This document shows positions 27,544 through 36,260 of a stretch of DNA of 41,591 nt, piece after piece. Each line of letters starts with the position of its first letter. Positions within the stretch are counted from its first letter, which is position 1. The translations under genes were made by a program, and so were the position numbers. The DNA is from Candidatus Zixiibacteriota bacterium (GTDB taxonomy: Bacteria; Zixibacteria; MSB-5A5; GN15; FEB-12): positions 1 to 41,591 of the forward strand of contig JAWXAN010000012.1 in NCBI GenBank assembly GCA_034439475.1, read 5' to 3'. The notes below the pieces were generated by a model that made no database searches, was not told the DNA's origin, and was given only the letters and a program-made list of their open reading frames with translations.

Positions 27544-28602
27544 ATGGTAAAGAAATCATTAAATAGTAATTTACACAAAGCCAACAAGGCGAAAAAAGAT
27601 GAGTTTTATACTCAGCTTATTGATATTGAAAAAGAATTGAAGCATTACAAAGGACAGTTTCGAGGTAAAATTGTTTATTGCAATTGTGATGATCCATTTG
27701 AAAGTAATTTTTTCAAATATTTCGCCGCCAATTTTAACGCTCTTGGTCTTAAAAAGTTAATCTCCACCAGTTATACAAACTCACCGATTGCCGGAGGACA
27801 GTTGCCGCTCTTTGAAGTCAAAGGCTTAAAACCGAAAGGCAAAGAGCCGTTCAAGATCGAGCTCAATGAAGTGACAGATTCCGACGCAGACGGCGCGGTG
27901 GGGCTTGCTGATGTGAAGTGGCTCTTGAAAAATGATGCCAATATCGCCACCCCACTTAAGGGTGACGGTGATTTTCGCAGTGAGGAGTGTATAGAACTAC
28001 TCAAACAAGCAGATATTGTTGTAACTAACCCGCCATTCTCGCTCTTCCGCGAATATGTGGAGCAGTTGGTCGAGTATAAAAGGAAGTTTATAATTCTTGG
28101 TGATCAGAACGCAATTACATATAAAGAATTTTTTAAACTGATAAAAGAAAACAGATTGTGGCTTGGTTATGACAACAACGGGACAAAATGGTTCCAAGTC
28201 CCAATGGATTACGATATACCAACAGAATCGAGAAAAAAAATTGTAAACGGCGTGAAGTATTTTAGCATGGGGCGGATTATGTGGTTCACAAATTTAGACA
28301 CCACAAAAAGACACGAAGAACTGACTTTATATAAAAAATATACTCCGGAAGAATATCCGAAGTACGATAATTATGATGCGATTGAAGTTTCAAAAGTGGC
28401 TGAAATCCCAGAGAATTATACTGGAGTGATGGGTGTGCCAGTGACTTTTGTTGATAAATATAATCCTGATCAGTTTCAGATTATCGGACATGTGGGGTCC
28501 GTTGGTGCAGACGGTGTGTATTCGTTTGCGAATGCGATTTATCTTAATAGTAAAAAATTATTTAAACGCATTTTAATTAAAAATAAGAAAGTAAAAAAAT
28601 AG
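27544..28602 (+). CDS. Adenine-specific DNA methyltransferase, EcoRI methylase family
   Basis: 352 residues, complete for the M.EcoRI-type family (EcoRI_methylase in Pfam). The head N-S-N-L-H-K-A-N-K-A-K-K-D-E-F-Y-T-Q is typical of it. V-Y-C-N-C-D-D-P-F-E-S-N-F-F (44-57) stands where the SAM-binding motif lies, and T-N-P-P-F-S (161-166) is the catalytic N/D-P-P-Y/F motif of N6-adenine methyltransferases. The gene is visibly AT-rich at both ends compared with its neighbours (16 of 60 bases are G or C in 27541-27600), a sign of transfer. No ribosome-binding site is evident, so expression may depend on coupling to the deacetylase. The next gene, one base later, encodes a DUF262-HNH protein, so the two probably form a modification and restriction pair. 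The recognition sequence is unknown. Confidence 0.85.
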   Translation: MVKKSLNSNLHKANKAKKDEFYTQLIDIEKELKHYKGQFRGKIVYCNCDDPFESNFFKYFAANFNALGLKKLISTSYTNSPIAGGQLPLFEVKGLKPKGKEPFKIELNEVTDSDADGAVGLADVKWLLKNDANIATPLKGDGDFRSEECIELLKQADIVVTNPPFSLFREYVEQLVEYKRKFIILGDQNAITYKEFFKLIKENRLWLGYDNNGTKWFQVPMDYDIPTESRKKIVNGVKYFSMGRIMWFTNLDTTKRHEELTLYKKYTPEEYPKYDNYDAIEVSKVAEIPENYTGVMGVPVTFVDKYNPDQFQIIGHVGSVGADGVYSFANAIYLNSKKLFKRILIKNKKVKK

Positions 28603-28603
28603 T

Positions 28604-29695
28604 ATGAAAATTGATCTACATAAAATACCAATTCGCGAAGTGATTGTCGGCTACAAAGATAGTGCCGAGGAGGGCGTGGTAGCTTATAGCGGCAAACTGG
28701 ATATTCGGCCAAAATATCAGCGCGAATTTGTGTACAAGGAAAAGCAGCGCAATGCCGTGATAGAAACTATCAAAAACAGCTTTCCGCTGAATGTGATGTA
28801 TTGGATGATTAGAGAAGATGGTGGCTACGAAGTGCTGGACGGCCAACAGCGCACTATCAGCATTGGGCAATATGTTACTGGTGATTTTTCTCTCAATGAT
28901 CGCTTTTTCCATAATCTAACAAAAGAAGAACAGTATGAAATTTTGGATTATGAACTGATGATTTACTTCTGCGAAGGTACAGACAAAGAACGGCTGGACT
29001 GGTTTAGGATTATCAATATTGCTGGAGAAAAATTAACTGATCAAGAAATTCGCAACGCGGTTTATACTGGGCCATGGCTATCAGACGCCAAACTCAAATT
29101 TAGCAAAACAAATTGTGCAGCCTATCTCTTAGCAAATGATGGCGGGCAGTTAGTGAGCGGTTCACCAATTAGGCAAGAGTATTTGGAAACCGCGCTTTCG
29201 TGGATCAATGGCGGCAATATTGAGGACTATATGGCCAAACATCAGCACGACAAAAGTGCTGACGAATTGTGGGAATATTTTCAAAAAGTGATCGCATGGA
29301 CGCGGGAGATTTTTACGAACTATCGCCGAGAAATGAGTAATGTGCCGTGGGGTGATTTGTATAACCAATTCAAAAATAAAAAATGTGATTCAAAGAAACT
29401 GGAAAAAGAAATAACCGAATTAATGCAAGATGAAGATGTGACCAAAAAGTCTGGTATCTATGAATATGTTTTGACCAGAAATGAAAAATATCTAAACATT
29501 CGCGCCTTTACCGAAAAGCAAAAGAGAGAAGCGTACGAAAGGCAAAAAGGCATCTGCGTAAAATGCAAAAAGCATTTTGAAATAGAAGAAATGGAGGCCG
29601 ATCACATAAAACCTTGGCACGAAGGCGGAAAAACTGTTTCAAAAAATTGCCAGATGTTATGTAAAGATTGTAACCGAAGAAAATCAGGAAACTAA
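28604..29695 (+). CDS. DUF262 and HNH nuclease fusion, predicted restriction partner
   Basis: 363 residues beginning one base after the methyltransferase stop. The N-terminal DUF262 (GmrS/ParB-like) domain carries the D-G-Q-Q-R-T motif (79-84), the nucleotide-binding/hydrolysis signature of the family, preceded by I-R-P-K-Y-Q-R-E-F-V-Y. An alpha-helical middle (about 120-300) follows. The C-terminal HNH domain of about 49 residues has C318-x2-C321, A-D-H-I-K-P-W (D333, H334), N348 and C353-x2-C356, a zinc-bound HNH with all core residues. The usual GmrSD/SspE-type proteins fuse or pair DUF262 with DUF1524; here an ordinary HNH takes that place. It probably cuts DNA lacking, or carrying, the partner's mark. 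Codon use is AT-rich like the methyltransferase. No phosphorothioation genes are present. Confidence 0.82.
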   Translation: MKIDLHKIPIREVIVGYKDSAEEGVVAYSGKLDIRPKYQREFVYKEKQRNAVIETIKNSFPLNVMYWMIREDGGYEVLDGQQRTISIGQYVTGDFSLNDRFFHNLTKEEQYEILDYELMIYFCEGTDKERLDWFRIINIAGEKLTDQEIRNAVYTGPWLSDAKLKFSKTNCAAYLLANDGGQLVSGSPIRQEYLETALSWINGGNIEDYMAKHQHDKSADELWEYFQKVIAWTREIFTNYRREMSNVPWGDLYNQFKNKKCDSKKLEKEITELMQDEDVTKKSGIYEYVLTRNEKYLNIRAFTEKQKREAYERQKGICVKCKKHFEIEEMEADHIKPWHEGGKTVSKNCQMLCKDCNRRKSGN

Positions 29696-29707
29696 AAAAG
29701 GCGGCGC

Positions 29708-29722
29708 GCCAGTTTCGCTGGC
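29708..29722. repeat. Hairpin GCCAG-TTTCG-CTGGC after the restriction pair
   Basis: A 5-bp perfect stem 12 bases past the DUF262-HNH stop, in a GC-rich stretch that contrasts with the AT-rich genes before it. It has no T-run, so terminator function is uncertain. Confidence 0.4.
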
Positions 29723-29758
29723 ACGAAATTCGGAAACGAAAAAGGAAAGGTTCAAAAA

Positions 29759-29797
29759 CCCGCCCGCATTCCTTCCCAGACCCCTCCTGCGGGCGGG
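29759..29797. repeat. Long GC-rich inverted repeat, 10-bp stem
   Basis: CCCGCCCGCA (29759-29768) is exactly complementary to TGCGGGCGGG (29788-29797) around 19 bases. With the hairpin at 29708 and a TCCGCC-like imperfect palindrome at 29822-29836, it makes an island of palindromes between the restriction pair and the glycosyltransferase remnant. It may be a dispersed repeat or a terminator-like boundary. No gene is visible in 29696-29990. Confidence 0.5.
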
Positions 29798-29993
29798 ACG
29801 GAAACCGAGGCAGGACAATTCTCCTCCAAAGGCGGACAGGCATTCCCCAGAAAAATAGTTTGCCCTGCCGAGTCCAAATTAGTATTCCGTGTTTTCTTCA
29901 AAAAATGTTCGAACTTCGTCCAAAAAACACCGGGAGCACGATATCCAAATACAGAGATGAAGCGCTCTAGCCGATCGAAGGAGCGCCCAAGGA

Positions 29994-30229
29994 TATATCA
30001 GCGACGGCGTGGACGGTTTGGTTGTCGATGCAGGCGATGCACAAGGTGTTAAAGCAGCTATCATGCATCTCTGGCCAACCCCGAGCATGCCCGTTCACTA
30101 AGCAGAGAGGCAAAGAGAAAGCTTGATGACCCGGCCTTTACAATGTCGCAGACACTTAAGTCAATTTACGGCCATGCCATTTCTCTTGATGAAAATCGCA
30201 AGAAATCAAAATCAGATTTTCTTTCGTAG
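29994..30229 (+). pseudogene. Decayed 3' end of a family 4 glycosyltransferase gene
   Basis: From 29994 one frame reads Y-I-S-D-G-V-D-G-L-V-V-D-A-G-D-A, the donor-domain segment of GT4 enzymes, then A-I-M-H-L and a stop at 30099-30101. Switching frame near 30069-30077 restores N-P-E-H-A-R-S-L-S-R-E-A-K-R-K-L, continuing through F-T-M-S-Q-T-L-K-S-I-Y-G to a stop at 30227-30229. Together these reproduce the last 80 or so residues of a GT4 protein with one frameshift. A second shift just upstream is likely, because G-A-P-K-D lies in a third frame at about 29980-29993. No 5' part was found, so the front was probably lost when the restriction pair arrived. Confidence 0.7.
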
Positions 30230-30384
30230 AGTGAGATTACGTATTTCACGAGACTGTGAGGTCATACTGGTATCATCGATTCGGGGATTGCTGTCCCTCT
30301 GTCCAGCTTCGCAGGGTAATTAGTTCTCTATGACCCAATTTTCGCTCCATTTAAAGTCATATTTTGTTCTACTCAAAAAAGTAT

Positions 30385-30427
30385 AAAAAGTAGTAACTTT
30401 TTGTCTTACTGGTCATTACAAGAGGAG
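30385..30427 (+). promoter_or_regulatory. A/T hairpin and strong ribosome-binding site before a CTG start
   Basis: AAAAAGT (30385-30391) and ACTTTTT (30396-30402) form a 7-bp stem with an AGTA loop. AGAGGAG (30421-30427) follows, seven bases before the CTG at 30435. The Shine-Dalgarno sequence is the best in this part of the window and fixes the start of the next gene. 30230-30384 shows no gene. Confidence 0.5.
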
Positions 30428-30434
30428 CAGCCGC

Positions 30435-31589
30435 CTGAATATTCTTACCGTCGTTCCATGGTACAAGCCCTACGTTGGAGGTGTCGTCGTGGCAGTAGAG
30501 AGAATTTGTCATCAGCTATCCCAGAACGGACATCAGTGTCTGATCCTTATCGATGGCGATTCTGATTCAATTGAAAAGAAATATGATGATGGTTTGGTGT
30601 CGGTCTATTCACTCTTCCAACGCCCTATGTACCAAAAGACAAAAACAATAAAGGCGGCCATTGCCTGGGCAGTCTATTTTCTGCCAACGCTTTTGAAGCT
30701 AAGGCGTTTCATTAAACTGCATAATATTGACATTGTTGTTCTCCATTTTCCGGGCATTGCCAACAGCTATTTCCCTGCGCTCAAACGTCTTTTTTCGGTC
30801 AAATATGTTGTGTGCGTCCACGGAAGCGATATACACACAAATATCCGCGAGCATCCGGCGGTTAAGACGGTAGTGAATTCAGTCGTCAGAAATGCCGATG
30901 CATTGATCGCATGTTCCGAATTCATGCTCGAGGAAGCCAGACGGGCGCTTCAAGCGATTCCCACCACCAGTAAAGCCATTTATATCGGAGTAGATTCACG
31001 ATGGGCGGAAAATGTTCCGTCCCGAAGTTATGCAATTAACGGTCGGTATATCATAGCCAATGCCTTCCCTGTGGATGTAAAGGGAACGGATATACTGTTA
31101 AAAGCTTTCGAGAAGATATCCGACACGTTTCCCGATGTCTCTCTCGTCCTACTCGGAGGACGGTCCACCGAAAAAGATCGCCAAAAGTTAATAAATGGCT
31201 CATCTGCCGCGAGTAAAATACATATTCTCGGCGAAGTAGCTAATCAGGATGTACCTTCGCTTTTTAGCGGGGCCTCTTTTGGGGTGGTTTCATCAAGACG
31301 CGAAGGTTTTCCCTTGGTTGTATTGGAAATGCAGTTGATGAAAAAAACGGTAATAGCAACGTCTGTTGGTGGATTACCGGAATCAATAAAAGACGGTTAT
31401 AACGGCTTTCTTATTGAGTCTGAAGACGTTGATTCACTTGCCGACAGGATGAGCTTTTGTCTTGAGCATGAGGAAGAATGCCGCATAATGGGAGAAAATG
31501 GATATAGACGGGTTATCAGCGATTTCAACCTCGAAACGACGGGTAAGCAATATCTCCAGCTCTTTGACAAAATTCTGCTGAAAAACTGA
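30435..31589 (+). CDS. Family 4 glycosyltransferase, apparent CTG start
   Basis: 384 residues if read from CTG at 30435. From there the protein reads (M)-N-I-L-T-V-V-P-W-Y-K-P-Y-V-G-G, the expected first strand and glycine loop of a GT-B transferase. The first ordinary start codon in frame, GTG at 30489, would delete this loop and lacks a ribosome-binding site. AGAGGAG at ideal distance supports the CTG. Other motifs: C-V-H-G-S-D-I-H, P-V-D-V-K-G-T-D-I-L-L-K in the donor domain, and the E-x7-E pair in R-R-E-G-F-P-L-V-V-L-E-M. It is a cytoplasmic sugar transferase of the glycan pathway; donor unknown. If CTG is wrong, the gene is 5'-truncated or a sequence error has changed an ATG. Confidence 0.75.
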   Translation: MNILTVVPWYKPYVGGVVVAVERICHQLSQNGHQCLILIDGDSDSIEKKYDDGLVSVYSLFQRPMYQKTKTIKAAIAWAVYFLPTLLKLRRFIKLHNIDIVVLHFPGIANSYFPALKRLFSVKYVVCVHGSDIHTNIREHPAVKTVVNSVVRNADALIACSEFMLEEARRALQAIPTTSKAIYIGVDSRWAENVPSRSYAINGRYIIANAFPVDVKGTDILLKAFEKISDTFPDVSLVLLGGRSTEKDRQKLINGSSAASKIHILGEVANQDVPSLFSGASFGVVSSRREGFPLVVLEMQLMKKTVIATSVGGLPESIKDGYNGFLIESEDVDSLADRMSFCLEHEEECRIMGENGYRRVISDFNLETTGKQYLQLFDKILLKN

Positions 31590-31738
31590 TCCCGTCCAAC
31601 TTCGGTACCCCTGTGGCGTATAAAAGTTGCTCAGCAGAGACAAGTAATCCATTGCCCGGAGAGCGCAGTGGCATAGATTCATCAAAAAATCAATCAAACC
31701 TTACGCTAATTGGAAGCGAATTAGGTATATTGTTTTAT

Positions 31739-33589
31739 ATGTCAGCAATCTGTGGTATAGTAGATTATTCACGTAGAGGTTTGGCTATTGACGCTGAACT
31801 CAAGTGTCTGATTGCGCCTCTTTGGCATTCGCAGGCGTTCACCATCGAAAAAAAGATTCTTGATGATGCCGGTTTGGCGCGCGTCTTCTTTGATACTCGT
31901 GATAATTTTTGCAGCGCCTCGCGGAATTTGATCGACGATGAAATCTGTTTTGTGTCTGGCTACATCACCAATATTGCGCAATGGACTGACGAAATCAGCC
32001 GAGACAGTGGCGGAGAAGTCAAAGTGACTTCTGCGGCTGACATTCTGGCCTATATCCATATTGTTCAACAGGGAAAAGGGATGGAGCGCCTCAACGGCAT
32101 TTTTTCATTCGCGCTGTGGCGGCCTTCGCGTAACGAGCTGATTCTTGGTACCGACCGTCATGGGATACGTCCTCTATATTATCGACAGTTTGCAGGACAT
32201 TTGGTCTTTGCCTCGGAGATGAAAGCCATTTACAACAGCGGCGACAGCTATGAAATCGATGACTTGACAGCCGAAGAAATCCTTGTTTTGGGATTCCCGC
32301 TTGGCGATAACACACTTCTCAAAGACGCCAAGCGAGTGCCCTCGGGAAGCTTTATCCGTTTCAGAAGCGAGGGTCCTTCCACCACTCGCTACTGGTGGTA
32401 CGACCAGTGGAAAGTCGACTCGACTCTGACTCCCCAGGATTATATCAGCGAAAATATCCGCCTGCTCAAACAGTCGATTGGACGGTTAGACGAACTCAGC
32501 GATAAACCTATCTGTCTGCTCAGTTCGGGACTTGATTCCCGCCGGATTATGCTTGAATTGACGAGAACAGGCAAACAGCCTGAAATCTTCACGACTGCGC
32601 TTCAGCTGGCCGGAGCCCACTATGACACCGACTCTATTGTCACTCAGGAATTGTGCCGTGAGTTTTCACTCAAACAGACCTTGGTTGATATTTATCCCGC
32701 CGAACTCGAAGGAGAACTTGCCCGGCATGCCTTTCATTTGCTTGATTATGAAACGAGTCAGCATCGCTGGCTGTTACCTTTACTGTCCAAAATACCACAA
32801 AATGCCGGAGTCAACTTTGACGGCCTGGGCGGCGACATGCTCGTCTACGACGATCATGTAACTCCCGAAATAAACCAGGAATGTCACAACAGCAACAAAT
32901 TGGCATCCACGATTCTCGATATGTTTGGAGCGCCGATACGTCTCTATCTTCGCAAAGCGCCTTCAGGCCCGCCACTGATAGAGCGTGTAGCAGCCATGCT
33001 GGACAATTTGCCGCAGAATGCCAACCGCTTCACGACTTTCCAATTTAGCAATTGGACACGCCGGCGTACTTCGCTGTTCGGGCAAACATTGCTCAGCATG
33101 AAAGTTGAGTCCGTCTGTCCTTACTTTGACAATGATCTCGCCGATTTTTGTATGAGTCTTTCTCCGTCTCTGAAACTCGACAGGAATTATCAGGACGAAA
33201 TCCTTCGCTTCGAGCGAGCCGATCTTATGAAACGAATCCCGACTTCACACTATCCTTTTATCCGAGTCAGCCCCGATGAATTCAGCCGCCCATTCACACG
33301 GCCGCTTCCAAAACAATACGGGTCGATTCGCAAGAGACATCTGTATGGAGCCGCCGCTAAGGAGATTTTTGCCGCCCCGCGACTACTTTCGATTCTGTCT
33401 GCAAACAGTCTTCTCGTTACACTCAGCACGCTCGGGTTTAACACAGTCAATATGATGCCTAAAGAGGTGGTCAGTCGCGGCTGGCGTCTTGAACCACTCA
33501 TGCAGTTGGCGCTCTTTAAACAGTCCCTTCACGATAAAACTTGGCGGGAAGAAGCTTTGACCAAAGCCCGCGAGAGTGTCTACGGATAG
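31739..33589 (+). CDS. Asparagine-synthase-like glutamine amidotransferase of glycan loci
   Basis: 616 residues from the ATG at 31739; the in-frame stretch back to 31613 does not look conserved. The N-terminal class II glutaminase domain begins M-S-A-I-C-G-I-V-D-Y, placing the cysteine at residue 5 rather than at position 2 as in AsnB, and continues with R-L-N-G-I-F-S-F-A-L-W and T-D-R-H-G-I-R-P-L. The synthetase domain has the PP-loop L-S-S-G-L-D-S (S262-S267). Asparagine-synthase homologues in exopolysaccharide clusters are thought to amidate uronic acids or similar carboxylates using glutamine and ATP. Its 3' end lies one base from the convergent GT4 gene. Confidence 0.8.
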   Translation: MSAICGIVDYSRRGLAIDAELKCLIAPLWHSQAFTIEKKILDDAGLARVFFDTRDNFCSASRNLIDDEICFVSGYITNIAQWTDEISRDSGGEVKVTSAADILAYIHIVQQGKGMERLNGIFSFALWRPSRNELILGTDRHGIRPLYYRQFAGHLVFASEMKAIYNSGDSYEIDDLTAEEILVLGFPLGDNTLLKDAKRVPSGSFIRFRSEGPSTTRYWWYDQWKVDSTLTPQDYISENIRLLKQSIGRLDELSDKPICLLSSGLDSRRIMLELTRTGKQPEIFTTALQLAGAHYDTDSIVTQELCREFSLKQTLVDIYPAELEGELARHAFHLLDYETSQHRWLLPLLSKIPQNAGVNFDGLGGDMLVYDDHVTPEINQECHNSNKLASTILDMFGAPIRLYLRKAPSGPPLIERVAAMLDNLPQNANRFTTFQFSNWTRRRTSLFGQTLLSMKVESVCPYFDNDLADFCMSLSPSLKLDRNYQDEILRFERADLMKRIPTSHYPFIRVSPDEFSRPFTRPLPKQYGSIRKRHLYGAAAKEIFAAPRLLSILSANSLLVTLSTLGFNTVNMMPKEVVSRGWRLEPLMQLALFKQSLHDKTWREEALTKARESVYG

Positions 33590-33590
33590 T

Positions 33591-34736
33591 TTATTTTAGA
33601 AAATCCAGAAACTTCGAACGCCCTGAGGCAATCAGGGCCTTATAGAGCATTTCGTGTTCAGCAATAAACTTGTCCATTGAGAAATTGCGCTCGGCGCGAT
33701 CCCGTCCGGAAATTCCCATTTTTTTTGCAGACGCGCTATCAGTCAGTAGACGGATCATGGCATTTGCGAGGGATTCAGAATCAGCAATCGGTACAATCAG
33801 TCCATCGGCTTTGTCTCGGACAATGTCTGCCGGACCGCCACAGTCGGTTACGACCACCGATAACTGTGATGCCATCGCTTCAACCGTGGTGAGAGAAAAT
33901 CCTTCGTGAAGCGACGAACAGACATAGAGGGACGCCACCGAAAAGAGAAGCGCGATATTGTCAAACGAACCGAGGAAGATGACTCTGTCCTTTACTCCCA
34001 AATCAGTCACGAGTGATAGCAGGCCAAGATTTTTGTTCTGGCTGTCTTCGCCGGCAATAAAAAGTCTCGCATCCGGCACTGATTTTAAAACACGGGCGAA
34101 AGCCGCGATGAGAAAACTATATCCCTTCACTTCTTTAACATTTCCGACGGCAACGACGACCGGCGCCGAAGGCTGAAGATTGTGCTGTCTGCGAAACTCT
34201 TCGATCGCTTCACTTGATGGCGGCGCGATGCGTGATTTGTCAAATCCGTTATTAATCACAACCAGCTTGGACTGATTCACCCCATATGTTGAGACATATT
34301 GGTCAGCAAGCGATCTGGACACCACAACTGTTCTGGTATTAAGCGCCCCGGCAAATTTGGCGAACAACCTTGCGCGCGGAGTGGTCTCATGCGGTAATAT
34401 GCCATGAACTGATCCGACTCCGGGGACGCCGCACCAACGCGAGAGAGGCCCGTTGTAGCTGTTCATTTTCAGCAGATGGCTGTGAACAAGGTCAATCTGG
34501 TTTTGTCGAACAATGCCCCGAAGCTGACGCAACACCTCAAGGTTCATTTGTCCGTCACCCTGTATCAGATGAACTGTCGCGCCTGTGGCTACGGCAAGGG
34601 GAGGTATTGATTTGGGAGTGACGATGGCAACATGGCTCTCAAATTCGTCTTTGTTAAGATGGGTGAGCAAATTCAACATGACATTCTCGGCGCCCCCGAT
34701 AACGCCAAAATCTTCTATGAGTTGAAGAATTTTCAT
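33591..34736 (-). CDS. Family 4 glycosyltransferase, probably translated from a leaderless mRNA
   Basis: 381 residues from the ATG at 34736, which begins M-K-I-L-Q-L-I-E-D-F-G-V-I-G-G-A-E-N-V, exactly where a GT4 protein should start. The frame is open further upstream to 34964, but that stretch contains the promoter and repeat-like DNA and is not conserved. The donor domain shows V-A-V-G-N-V-K-E-V-K-G and the E-x7-E pair in L-H-E-G-F-S-L-T-T-V-E-A-M. There is no Shine-Dalgarno sequence, and the predicted transcription start coincides with the ATG. It is on the opposite strand to the rest of the glycan cluster and ends tail-to-tail with the amidotransferase gene. Confidence 0.85.
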   Translation of the reverse strand: MKILQLIEDFGVIGGAENVMLNLLTHLNKDEFESHVAIVTPKSIPPLAVATGATVHLIQGDGQMNLEVLRQLRGIVRQNQIDLVHSHLLKMNSYNGPLSRWCGVPGVGSVHGILPHETTPRARLFAKFAGALNTRTVVVSRSLADQYVSTYGVNQSKLVVINNGFDKSRIAPPSSEAIEEFRRQHNLQPSAPVVVAVGNVKEVKGYSFLIAAFARVLKSVPDARLFIAGEDSQNKNLGLLSLVTDLGVKDRVIFLGSFDNIALLFSVASLYVCSSLHEGFSLTTVEAMASQLSVVVTDCGGPADIVRDKADGLIVPIADSESLANAMIRLLTDSASAKKMGISGRDRAERNFSMDKFIAEHEMLYKALIASGRSKFLDFLK

Positions 34737-34742
34737 GAGGCT

Positions 34743-34771
34743 TATATAGCGAGGGGGGTATTGGCTGTCAA
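34743..34771 (-). promoter_or_regulatory. Near-consensus sigma-70 promoter abutting the GT4 start codon
   Basis: On the minus strand TTGACA (34771-34766) is followed after exactly 17 bases by TATATA (34748-34743). Both hexamers and the spacing are close to ideal. Transcription would begin six to eight bases beyond the -10, at about 34737-34735, which is the ATG at 34736. This predicts a leaderless or nearly leaderless transcript. Confidence 0.65.
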
Positions 34772-35015
34772 CAGTTGAAAAGTGGGAGGGGGCAATCACG
34801 AAGAGATATTGACCTGTTGGGCAGAGCCAACCGACATCACATTGCATCTTCGTGCAGTCCGACGTGCCTGCCAGTTGTGGCGGGTGGCCAGAGGATTCCA
34901 CCTCCACCATCTCCCACAAAAAAAACCTATTGATATTGCCACTGAAATTTCGCTCCTTGCCCATTCTGATATAGAGATTTGATAAGTTTGTAACTAGTCT
35001 GACAAGAGGAGATGC
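34772..35015. other. Divergent intergenic region upstream of DUF1015 operon
   Basis: No gene supported. It resembles repeat debris (GTGCAGTCCGACGTGCCTG around 34853-34871). A weak candidate promoter for the plus-strand operon is TTGCCC (34957-34962), 17 bases, TGATAA (34980-34985). GAGGAG (35006-35011) is the ribosome-binding site for the GTG at 35016. Confidence 0.35.
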
Positions 35016-36260
35016 GTGGCGACTATTCGGCCATTTAAAGGACTTCGAGTTGCTCCAGCGCTTGCGCCGCGTGTGGCCACACCGCCATATGATACTCTGT
35101 CGGGAACCGAAGCACGCGAACTTGCCGAAGGCAAACCCTATTCATTTCTGCTCATCGACCGTCCCGATATTGAATTTCCTGACAATTATGACCCATATGA
35201 TGAAACAGTCTATACTCTCGGGCGGGAAAACCTCGACCGATTCATGGGCAATAAGACATTTATCCAGGACTCTCAGCCCTGTTTTTATCTCTACCGCCTG
35301 ACCATGAACGGCCGGAAACAGACCGGACTCGTAGCGCTGACATCGGTTGAGGAATATGATAACGGCATCGTCAAAAAGCACGAGCACACCCGTCCTGAAA
35401 AAGTGAAAGACCGCGCCAACCATATTATCGCCTGCCGGGCACAGGTCTCACCAGTTCTGTCCACATTCAAGCAAGACCCAACCATAGCTGAGATCTTCAG
35501 GAAAATTAGTGCGTCCAAGTCTGTTGTGGATTTTAGAAGCGATGATGATGTCAACCACGAATTTTGGGTTGTGAATGATATAGAAACAATCAAAGCGCTC
35601 ATTGAAGCATTCGCTAAACTGCCATTACTTTATATAGCCGATGGCCACCACCGATGCGAGGCCGCATCGGATGTCGCGCGGCAGATGAGAGACGAGAATC
35701 CTCGGCACACAGGGGACGAGCCCTATAATTATTTTCTCAATGGCCTCTTTGCGGACAGCGGTCTGCATATCATGCCATATAACCGGGTGATTCGGGATAC
35801 GAATGGTCTGACACCTGAAGCATTATTGGAAAGAGTGAAGGAAAAATTTGACCTGAAACTTTCATCAGTCGCTGTCGCCCCCACAAAACCGCACCAGTTC
35901 GGGCTTTATTGCGAAAAGCAATGGTACCTTCTCAACGCCAAGGAAGGTAGTTTCGATGCCAACCATCACACCAAGTCAATCGATGCCGCAATTCTGGCTG
36001 ACAACCTTATCAGCCCTGTTTTGGGAATACACAACCAGCGCACCGATAAACGGATTGATTTTGTGGGTGGCATACGGGGAACCGCGGAACTTGTGCGACT
36101 AGTCGATTCGGGAGATTTTTCTTTGGCCTTTTCTCTCTACCCGACAAGCATCGAACAACTGCTTCGGGTGGCCGATGCTGGCGAAGTCATGCCCCCAAAA
36201 TCAACATGGTTCGAACCGAAACTGCGCTCAGGACTCATTGTCCACCTGCTGGCCGAATGA
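35016..36260 (+). CDS. DUF1015 family protein linked to serine biosynthesis
   Basis: 414 residues from a GTG at 35016, with GAGGAG four bases upstream. The DUF1015 signature is clear: R-P-F-K-G-L-R at the N-terminus, A-T-P-P-Y-D, V-K-K-H-E-H-T near 120, and I-A-D-G-H-H-R (D209-R213). D-G-H-H-R resembles the core motif of ParB/sulfiredoxin-like folds, which include free-serine kinases, but this is only a short match. Members are often found beside serA and serC, as here. The function is not established to my knowledge; a role in serine or phosphoserine metabolism is inferred from context. It is 16 bases upstream of the dehydrogenase gene. Confidence 0.8.
   Translation: MATIRPFKGLRVAPALAPRVATPPYDTLSGTEARELAEGKPYSFLLIDRPDIEFPDNYDPYDETVYTLGRENLDRFMGNKTFIQDSQPCFYLYRLTMNGRKQTGLVALTSVEEYDNGIVKKHEHTRPEKVKDRANHIIACRAQVSPVLSTFKQDPTIAEIFRKISASKSVVDFRSDDDVNHEFWVVNDIETIKALIEAFAKLPLLYIADGHHRCEAASDVARQMRDENPRHTGDEPYNYFLNGLFADSGLHIMPYNRVIRDTNGLTPEALLERVKEKFDLKLSSVAVAPTKPHQFGLYCEKQWYLLNAKEGSFDANHHTKSIDAAILADNLISPVLGIHNQRTDKRIDFVGGIRGTAELVRLVDSGDFSLAFSLYPTSIEQLLRVADAGEVMPPKSTWFEPKLRSGLIVHLLAE

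Follow-up and report, generated by a model that had tools for sequence, protein, structure and literature searches.

Many bacteria are known to have leaderless genes whose -10 box lies about 12 bp ahead of the start codon, and part of a table in one survey gives averages of 2.4 to 39.4% of genes for bacterial groups (Zheng et al. 2011, BMC Genomics 12:361, PMC3160421). In Deinococcus-Thermus, experiments showed that a -10 element a few bases before the open reading frame (ORF) gives a leaderless mRNA, and the same work included a scan of reference genomes across bacteria (Zhong et al. 2025, PMC12340547). A leaderless transcriptome was mapped experimentally in Mycobacterium tuberculosis (PMC3898074), and a survey of genes lacking a Shine-Dalgarno (SD) sequence in 260 prokaryotes described AT-rich biases before the starts in some phyla, with the choice between promoters and S1 sites left undecided in the passages concerned (PMC5397173). 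The literature that we searched contained no report of leaderless genes, SD sequences, promoters or transcription starts in Zixibacteria/Zixiibacteriota. Here, we analyzed a 41,591-nt stretch of DNA from a Candidatus Zixiibacteriota bacterium (the window), in which a gene for a GT4-type glycosyltransferase starts six bases downstream of a promoter-like sequence on the minus strand.

Judging from this arrangement and from its recurrence elsewhere, the GT4 gene is probably leaderless and transcribed from a promoter with 6 nt between its -10 element and the ATG. It looks like one of a class of genes in this genome that is conserved in its order of Candidatus Zixiibacteriota, and of which gatC and smpB are the clearest members. 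We also consider it likely that, alongside a conventional SD system, Candidatus Zixiibacteriota keeps a conserved leaderless set including gatC and smpB, in which the distance between promoter and start is near nucleotide-exact over one order or more, and that apparently acquired genes such as the GT4 gene can join this set. Leaderless genes are known elsewhere; what stands out here is the phylum and the conservation in gatC and smpB. If this is true, leaderless initiation reaches one more phylum, and two translation-related genes hold a leaderless start across four families of the order. The genes would also form a clean natural set, with conserved boxes, a variable spacer and start codons that are either ATG or GTG, in which to ask what makes some genes do without a leader. 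Start calls that rely on an SD sequence or on the longest frame would misplace such genes; for the GT4 protein, the longest ORF adds 76 residues.

The closest counterparts, the TA-led leaderless genes as described in the relevant passages of PMC3160421, share with the GT4 gene a -10-like box about 12 bp upstream and the lack of an SD sequence, and they too were found by sequence statistics; the first T of the GT4 box lies at -12. Their consensus is TANNNT, compared with TATATA in the GT4 gene, and the quoted passage that lists the leaderless-gene groups does not name Zixibacteria. They differ in that the Zixibacterium signal includes a TTGACA-like -35 element, to which the enrichment is coupled. 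The system outlined for Deinococcus-Thermus (PMC12340547) is alike in having a -10 element adjoining the ORF and a leaderless message, whereas the class detected here is smaller, has -35 boxes and belongs to another phylum. The message structure reported for M. tuberculosis (PMC3898074) is that proposed here, but it was mapped experimentally there, in another phylum, whereas the GT4 structure is deduced from sequence.

Putative promoter and start codon of the GT4 gene

The first-pass annotation of the window had described, for the minus strand, TTGACA followed after 17 bases by TATATA and after six more by the ATG, and both the coordinates and the layout were confirmed exactly (Table 1). It was also right that the ATG lacks an SD sequence: no core motif was found upstream, and the strongest pairing with the 16S rRNA tail was -0.7 kcal/mol, the anti-SD sequence (GGATCACCTCCTTT) being intact in the 16S rRNA of the same genome. 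Its description as a near-perfect promoter is accurate for the -35 element (6/6), but not for the -10 element (4/6), which has no T at position 6. The hexamers have the sigma-70-type separation of 16-18 nt, with a spacer of 17 nt.

We scored -35 and -10 elements jointly with a matrix of E. coli percentages, using a standard threshold of score >=5, and defined d as the number of bases between the -10 element and the start codon. The GT4 site scored 6.8, and sites this strong occurred at 1.2e-4 per position (249/2,036,520; sampled genome, both strands, coding DNA included). The exact pattern TTGACA-N17-TATA had its sole instance in the window at this site. TTGACA-N15..19-TATATA matched 10 times in the whole genome (2,664,891 bases), two of the matches having a common -35 element, and the pattern read backward matched 0 times.

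A housekeeping-sigma promoter would be placed to drive the GT4 gene with its -10 element ending 6 nt before the ATG. A six-base discriminator is usual for sigma-70 promoters; if it applies here, the A of the ATG is +1 at d = 6. RNA synthesis would start at this A, or 1-2 nt from it, and yield a leaderless mRNA, whose 5'-terminal AUG ribosomes would bind directly without an SD interaction. In the best predicted structure of the first 61 nt of this message, the AUG was unpaired.

Because the GT4 gene is flanked by a divergent and a convergent gene, it forms its own unit and should have its promoter within the 279 nt of intergenic DNA that separates it from the divergent DUF1015 gene. The proximal site was the strongest promoter-like site of the minus strand in this DNA, followed by an independent site with a score of 5.7 (TTGTCA-17-TCAAAT). 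Transcription might start mainly from the latter, near 34970, and the ATG at 34736 be translated without an SD sequence behind a longer leader, for example with the help of S1, the proximal box being secondary or silent. The score of the upstream site, the S1-domain proteins encoded by the genome and the many genes here without a core SD motif are compatible with such a leader; however, the upstream -10 element TCAAAT has no A at position 2, the site falls in the region around the start of the divergent DUF1015 gene, and the proximal site is both stronger and in a register that is enriched genome-wide (see below). We regard this longer leader as unlikely.

The start at 34736 was chosen by a gene finder that was ignorant of promoters and SD sequences. 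In the resulting 381-aa form, residue 13 is the first of the GT4 N-terminal domain, and the next downstream starts, at codons 20-23, lie behind a GGAE motif that is invariant in 7 aligned homologues. Longer forms starting at ATG 34964 (a 457-aa ORF) or GTG 34901 were rejected since the extension is non-coding by hexamer score. The latter start forms part of a second alternative, in which GTG 34901 is the real start, fed by the upstream promoter, and the box at 34743-34771 is a chance match inside coding sequence. The frame is indeed open in phase to 35144 and an SD-like sequence precedes the GTG, but the 55-codon extension scored -0.14 per codon, whereas coding windows average 0.247 (sd 0.108) and 0/570 are as low; the 76-residue N-terminal extension found no convincing match in homologous loci (best tblastn E 0.15); and the position of the N-terminal domain fits the short form. 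This alternative appears highly improbable.

The start codon had also been called family-conserved. This holds for the N-terminal block KILQLIEDFG..GGAE, whereas the exact start position is kept in only 3/18 homologous loci (L174, L208 and L186).

A class of leaderless-spaced promoters in the genome

We extended the scoring to 1,017,076 bases of the genome, window included, in which our own hexamer gene finder called 782 genes. After dropping 17 of them for having <120 nt upstream, 765 were kept, comprising 399 first genes (divergent, or >=60 nt from the preceding gene) and 366 others. A core SD motif preceded 143 of the first genes and was absent from 256. Among these 256, promoter-like matches with a score >=5 numbered 4 at d = 5, 9 at d = 6 and 3 at d = 7, giving 16 matches in 15 genes against a background of 2.3 per three distances (d = 15-80; Poisson P of >=16 = 4e-9), and d = 6 was the mode of the distance distribution. 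The 143 first genes with an SD motif showed no promoter match at d = 3-11 at this threshold.

Several controls were compared with the 15 genes observed. Mononucleotide shuffles gave 1.3 genes on average (maximum 5 over 200 runs). When genes exchanged their -35 halves, the figure was 5.1 (maximum 10 over 200 runs); since the swapped halves yielded fewer genes, both boxes matter together. Internal SD-less ATGs (n = 1,688) had 8 matches upstream and no such peak. The peak in the first genes persisted at thresholds of 4 (23 versus 4.5) and 6 (8 versus 0.95). SD-led sigma-70 genes as in E. coli have the same promoter elements and spacing, but the E. coli sample differed in having no promoter peak at d = 5-7: when 350 kb of MG1655 was passed through the same pipeline, 0/95 SD-less and 0/92 SD first genes had a match at these distances with a score >=5. 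The idea of a -35 element arose in the first sample, before joint scoring of both samples, so the joint test is no clean hold-out.

The GT4 site ranked third by score among the 15, level with the fourth after rounding. The other members include the genes for Sir2, a solute-binding protein, an ArsR-type regulator, GatC, a deaminase, SmpB, peptidyl-tRNA hydrolase, Dus, an AIRS-domain protein, a Cons_hypoth95 protein and NAD-dependent DNA ligase. Of the 15 start codons, 13 are ATG and 2 are GTG. The gene for the ArsR-type regulator (L055:10257-10577, minus strand; G000:C48, minus strand) has TTGACA-17-TATATA-5-ATG upstream. A perfect 16-nt palindrome (GTTACTATATAGTAAC) has this -10 element in its middle and ends at the ATG; to judge from the sequence, it resembles an operator for autoregulation of a leaderless promoter.

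These counts also bear on the possibility that the promoter-like sequence of the GT4 gene is a chance match and that the gene is expressed weakly or otherwise, by another sigma factor or by read-through. Promoter-like sequences do arise by chance, the GT4 -10 element matches only 4/6, and the homologous loci yielded no positional orthologue. On the other hand, the 256 SD-less first genes should together hold about 0.1 sites of this strength at d = 5-7, a figure based on the genome-wide density with coding DNA included and perhaps low for intergenic DNA, whereas 4 were seen, and an exact -35 element, optimal spacing and optimal distance coincide. We therefore hold a chance match to be very unlikely.

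The annotation had also set the GT4 gene apart from most other genes of the window, which were said to have clear ribosome-binding sites. This was not borne out, as only 12/32 other window genes had a core SD motif (by our own start calls, some of which are uncertain) and 11/32 reached an SD pairing of -4.4 kcal/mol, as did 42% of the 765 sampled genes.

Relatives and phylum-wide search

We applied the same pipeline to 400 kb of each of three relatives. In G039, which belongs to another family of the same order, 8 matches were found at d = 5-7 versus 1.05, and in G016, from the same family, 7 versus 0.64; SD genes had 1 and 0 matches, respectively. Across 97 genomes of the phylum, a plain search for the pattern, made independently of gene calls, returned 1,726 matches at d = 5-7 versus 1,321 at d = 15-17; the d = 5-7 count was the higher in 72/97 genomes and the lower in 19, with ties in 6. 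The corresponding counts were 25 versus 21 in G039, 6 versus 1 in G016 and 17 versus 7 in the third relative, G007. The difference is modest, though in the same direction, because any ATG counts in such a search and short-leader promoters fall in the control.

Conservation in gatC, smpB and pth

The closest GT4 homologues lie in records of candidate division Zixibacteria / Candidatus Zixiibacteriota. Since no positional orthologue of the GT4 gene was identified among them, an orthologue test fails, and the question was therefore put to three housekeeping genes of the class, gatC, smpB and pth. Each was sought in 60 genomes and found in 37, 56 and 58, respectively; all 37 gatC, all 56 smpB and 30 pth loci were read, one gatC and one smpB locus being left out for having no start. 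A leaderless-spaced promoter was defined as a score >=4 at d = 5-7 at the start nearest the homologous position. An earlier comparison, which chose the best start by promoter score, was biased, and the counts given here use the nearest homologous start. The three genes were chosen as leaderless-looking in the genome studied, so that the loci of this genome are positive by construction.

A leaderless-spaced promoter was found in 33/36 gatC loci and in 41/55 smpB loci, with 1 locus each in the shifted control (d = 15-17). Inside the order of the genome studied (G000), all 33/33 gatC loci were positive, spanning four families; the three misses (G082, G098 and G104) lie outside it, as does G065, the locus that had no start. 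For smpB, by a split made by hand, 39/50 loci were positive inside the order and 2/5 outside (G062 and G065 positive; G082, G098 and G104 negative).

The distances are tightly kept. In the first 30 gatC loci, TTGAC starts at position -34 in 24 loci, one base earlier (-35) in 4 and one base later (-33) in 1, and TAnnnT ends 5 nt before the start (d = 5) in 27/30. Mean pairwise identity in these loci was 0.72 for the -35 element and 0.68 for the -10 element, compared with 0.29 for the spacer, 0.26 farther upstream and 0.60 for the first 60 nt of the gene. From these alignments, little is conserved beyond the two boxes of the promoter and how far they lie from the start codon, as expected of a leaderless promoter.

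Two further features of these upstream regions were observed. The start codon is GTG at the same leaderless position in 8/30 gatC loci (L291-L294, L296, L304, L305 and L307), and in these genes a leaderless GUG start would be used. Just before the -35 box of gatC, T or A occurs in 29/30 loci (L286-L315) at -40 and likewise at -39, and many smpB upstream regions read TTTTTAATTGC or similar; these A/T-rich positions may be an UP-element-like feature.

Evidence against a leaderless GT4 gene

A number of results weigh against the GT4 gene being leaderless, or against the class to which it is assigned. One concerns the final base of its -10 element, A at 34743, where sigma-70 promoters usually have T; the strict TANNNT form of the leaderless box is likewise lacking. 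The bases at positions 1, 2 and 6 of the -10 element were reported to be irreplaceable in Deinococcus (PMC12340547), T is present at position 6 in 27/30 gatC loci, and the missing T is common to the GT4 gene and only one other of the 15 sites, that of the ArsR-type gene. For this reason, the GT4 site is absent from a strict consensus promoter scan, and because its box is TATATA rather than TANNNT, we offer the GT4 gene as working like a leaderless gene. In addition, a second promoter-like site lies 240 nt upstream, an SD-preceded GTG is also present on that side, and shuffled sequences fold somewhat less well than the initial 61 nt of the message (z -2.0).

The best homologues (48, 44 and 43% identity) have other contexts, other upstream regions and other starts, and the promoter was found at the homologous start in no homologue, either among 22 loci inspected by eye (own locus included) or among 18 loci scored, several of which are the same places as the by-eye loci under other names. 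At other in-frame starts, a score >=4 at d = 5-7 occurred in two homologues: L159, the closest (48%), scored 4.4 for a TTG 15 nt inside the gene, its SD-preceded ATG sitting 3 codons upstream, and L163 scored 4.2 for an SD-preceded GTG located 18 nt upstream.

As for the class, pth, which is leaderless-like in the genome studied, has the arrangement in only 5/30 loci (shifted control, 1). No clear peak was seen in G007, a relative of the same family with 65% GC (2 versus 1.77; SD genes, 1), and the plain pattern search did not separate the distances in the studied genome itself (18 at d = 5-7 and 17 at d = 15-17). The TTGAC box alone, 27-29 nt before the start, was present in 5/168 genes of the first sample and only 3/231 of the second; because this marker was weak in the second sample, the joint -35/-10 score was used.

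The GT4 gene has the geometry of the class, has no SD sequence and needs a promoter, and it is therefore probably leaderless. The proposal of a leaderless mRNA in the first-pass annotation is well supported by the geometry and by the genome-wide and cross-genome statistics, with the 5' end of the GT4 message itself placed by sequence.

Features of the locus and other observations

The GT4 assignment rests on N-terminal (PF13439) and C-terminal (PF00534/PF13692) domains, both above the cut-off. The coordinates of the gene, its promoter and its neighbours are collected in Table 1.

Table 1. Features of the GT4 locus (positions in the window)
Feature	Position	Strand	Remarks
GT4-type glycosyltransferase gene	33591..34736	-	381 aa; single-gene unit; Pfam PF13439, PF00534, PF13692
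-35 element TTGACA	34766..34771	-	matches consensus 6/6
Spacer GCCAATACCCCCCTCGC	34749..34765	-	17 nt
-10 element TATATA	34743..34748	-	matches 4/6 of TATAAT; final base A, not T
Discriminator AGCCTC	34737..34742	-	6 nt, without SD; best 16S-tail pairing -0.7 kcal/mol
ATG start codon	34734..34736	-	from hexamer coding potential, blind to promoter and SD
Putative transcription start, A	34736	-	from spacing
Rival in-frame GTG	34899..34901	-	SD-like GGAG 9 nt upstream; 55-codon extension scores non-coding
Rival promoter-like site TTGTCA-17-TCAAAT	34977..35005	-	score 5.7; leader would be about 230 nt
Divergent DUF1015 gene	35016..36260	+	GTG start with clear SD AGGAG at 35007-35011
Convergent asparagine-synthase-like gene	31613..33589	+	start uncertain; end 1 nt from GT4 stop

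No RNA family reached the gathering score in the window, and no tRNAs were found in it. A stretch of 793 nt without a called gene (29696-30488) precedes the next glycosyltransferase gene. On its other side (27544-29695, plus strand), an EcoRI-type adenine methyltransferase (PF13651, E 4e-137) adjoins a GmrSD_N-HNH protein, which PADLOC matches best to a type II restriction enzyme; by these matches, the two genes look like a restriction-modification pair inside a polysaccharide gene cluster.
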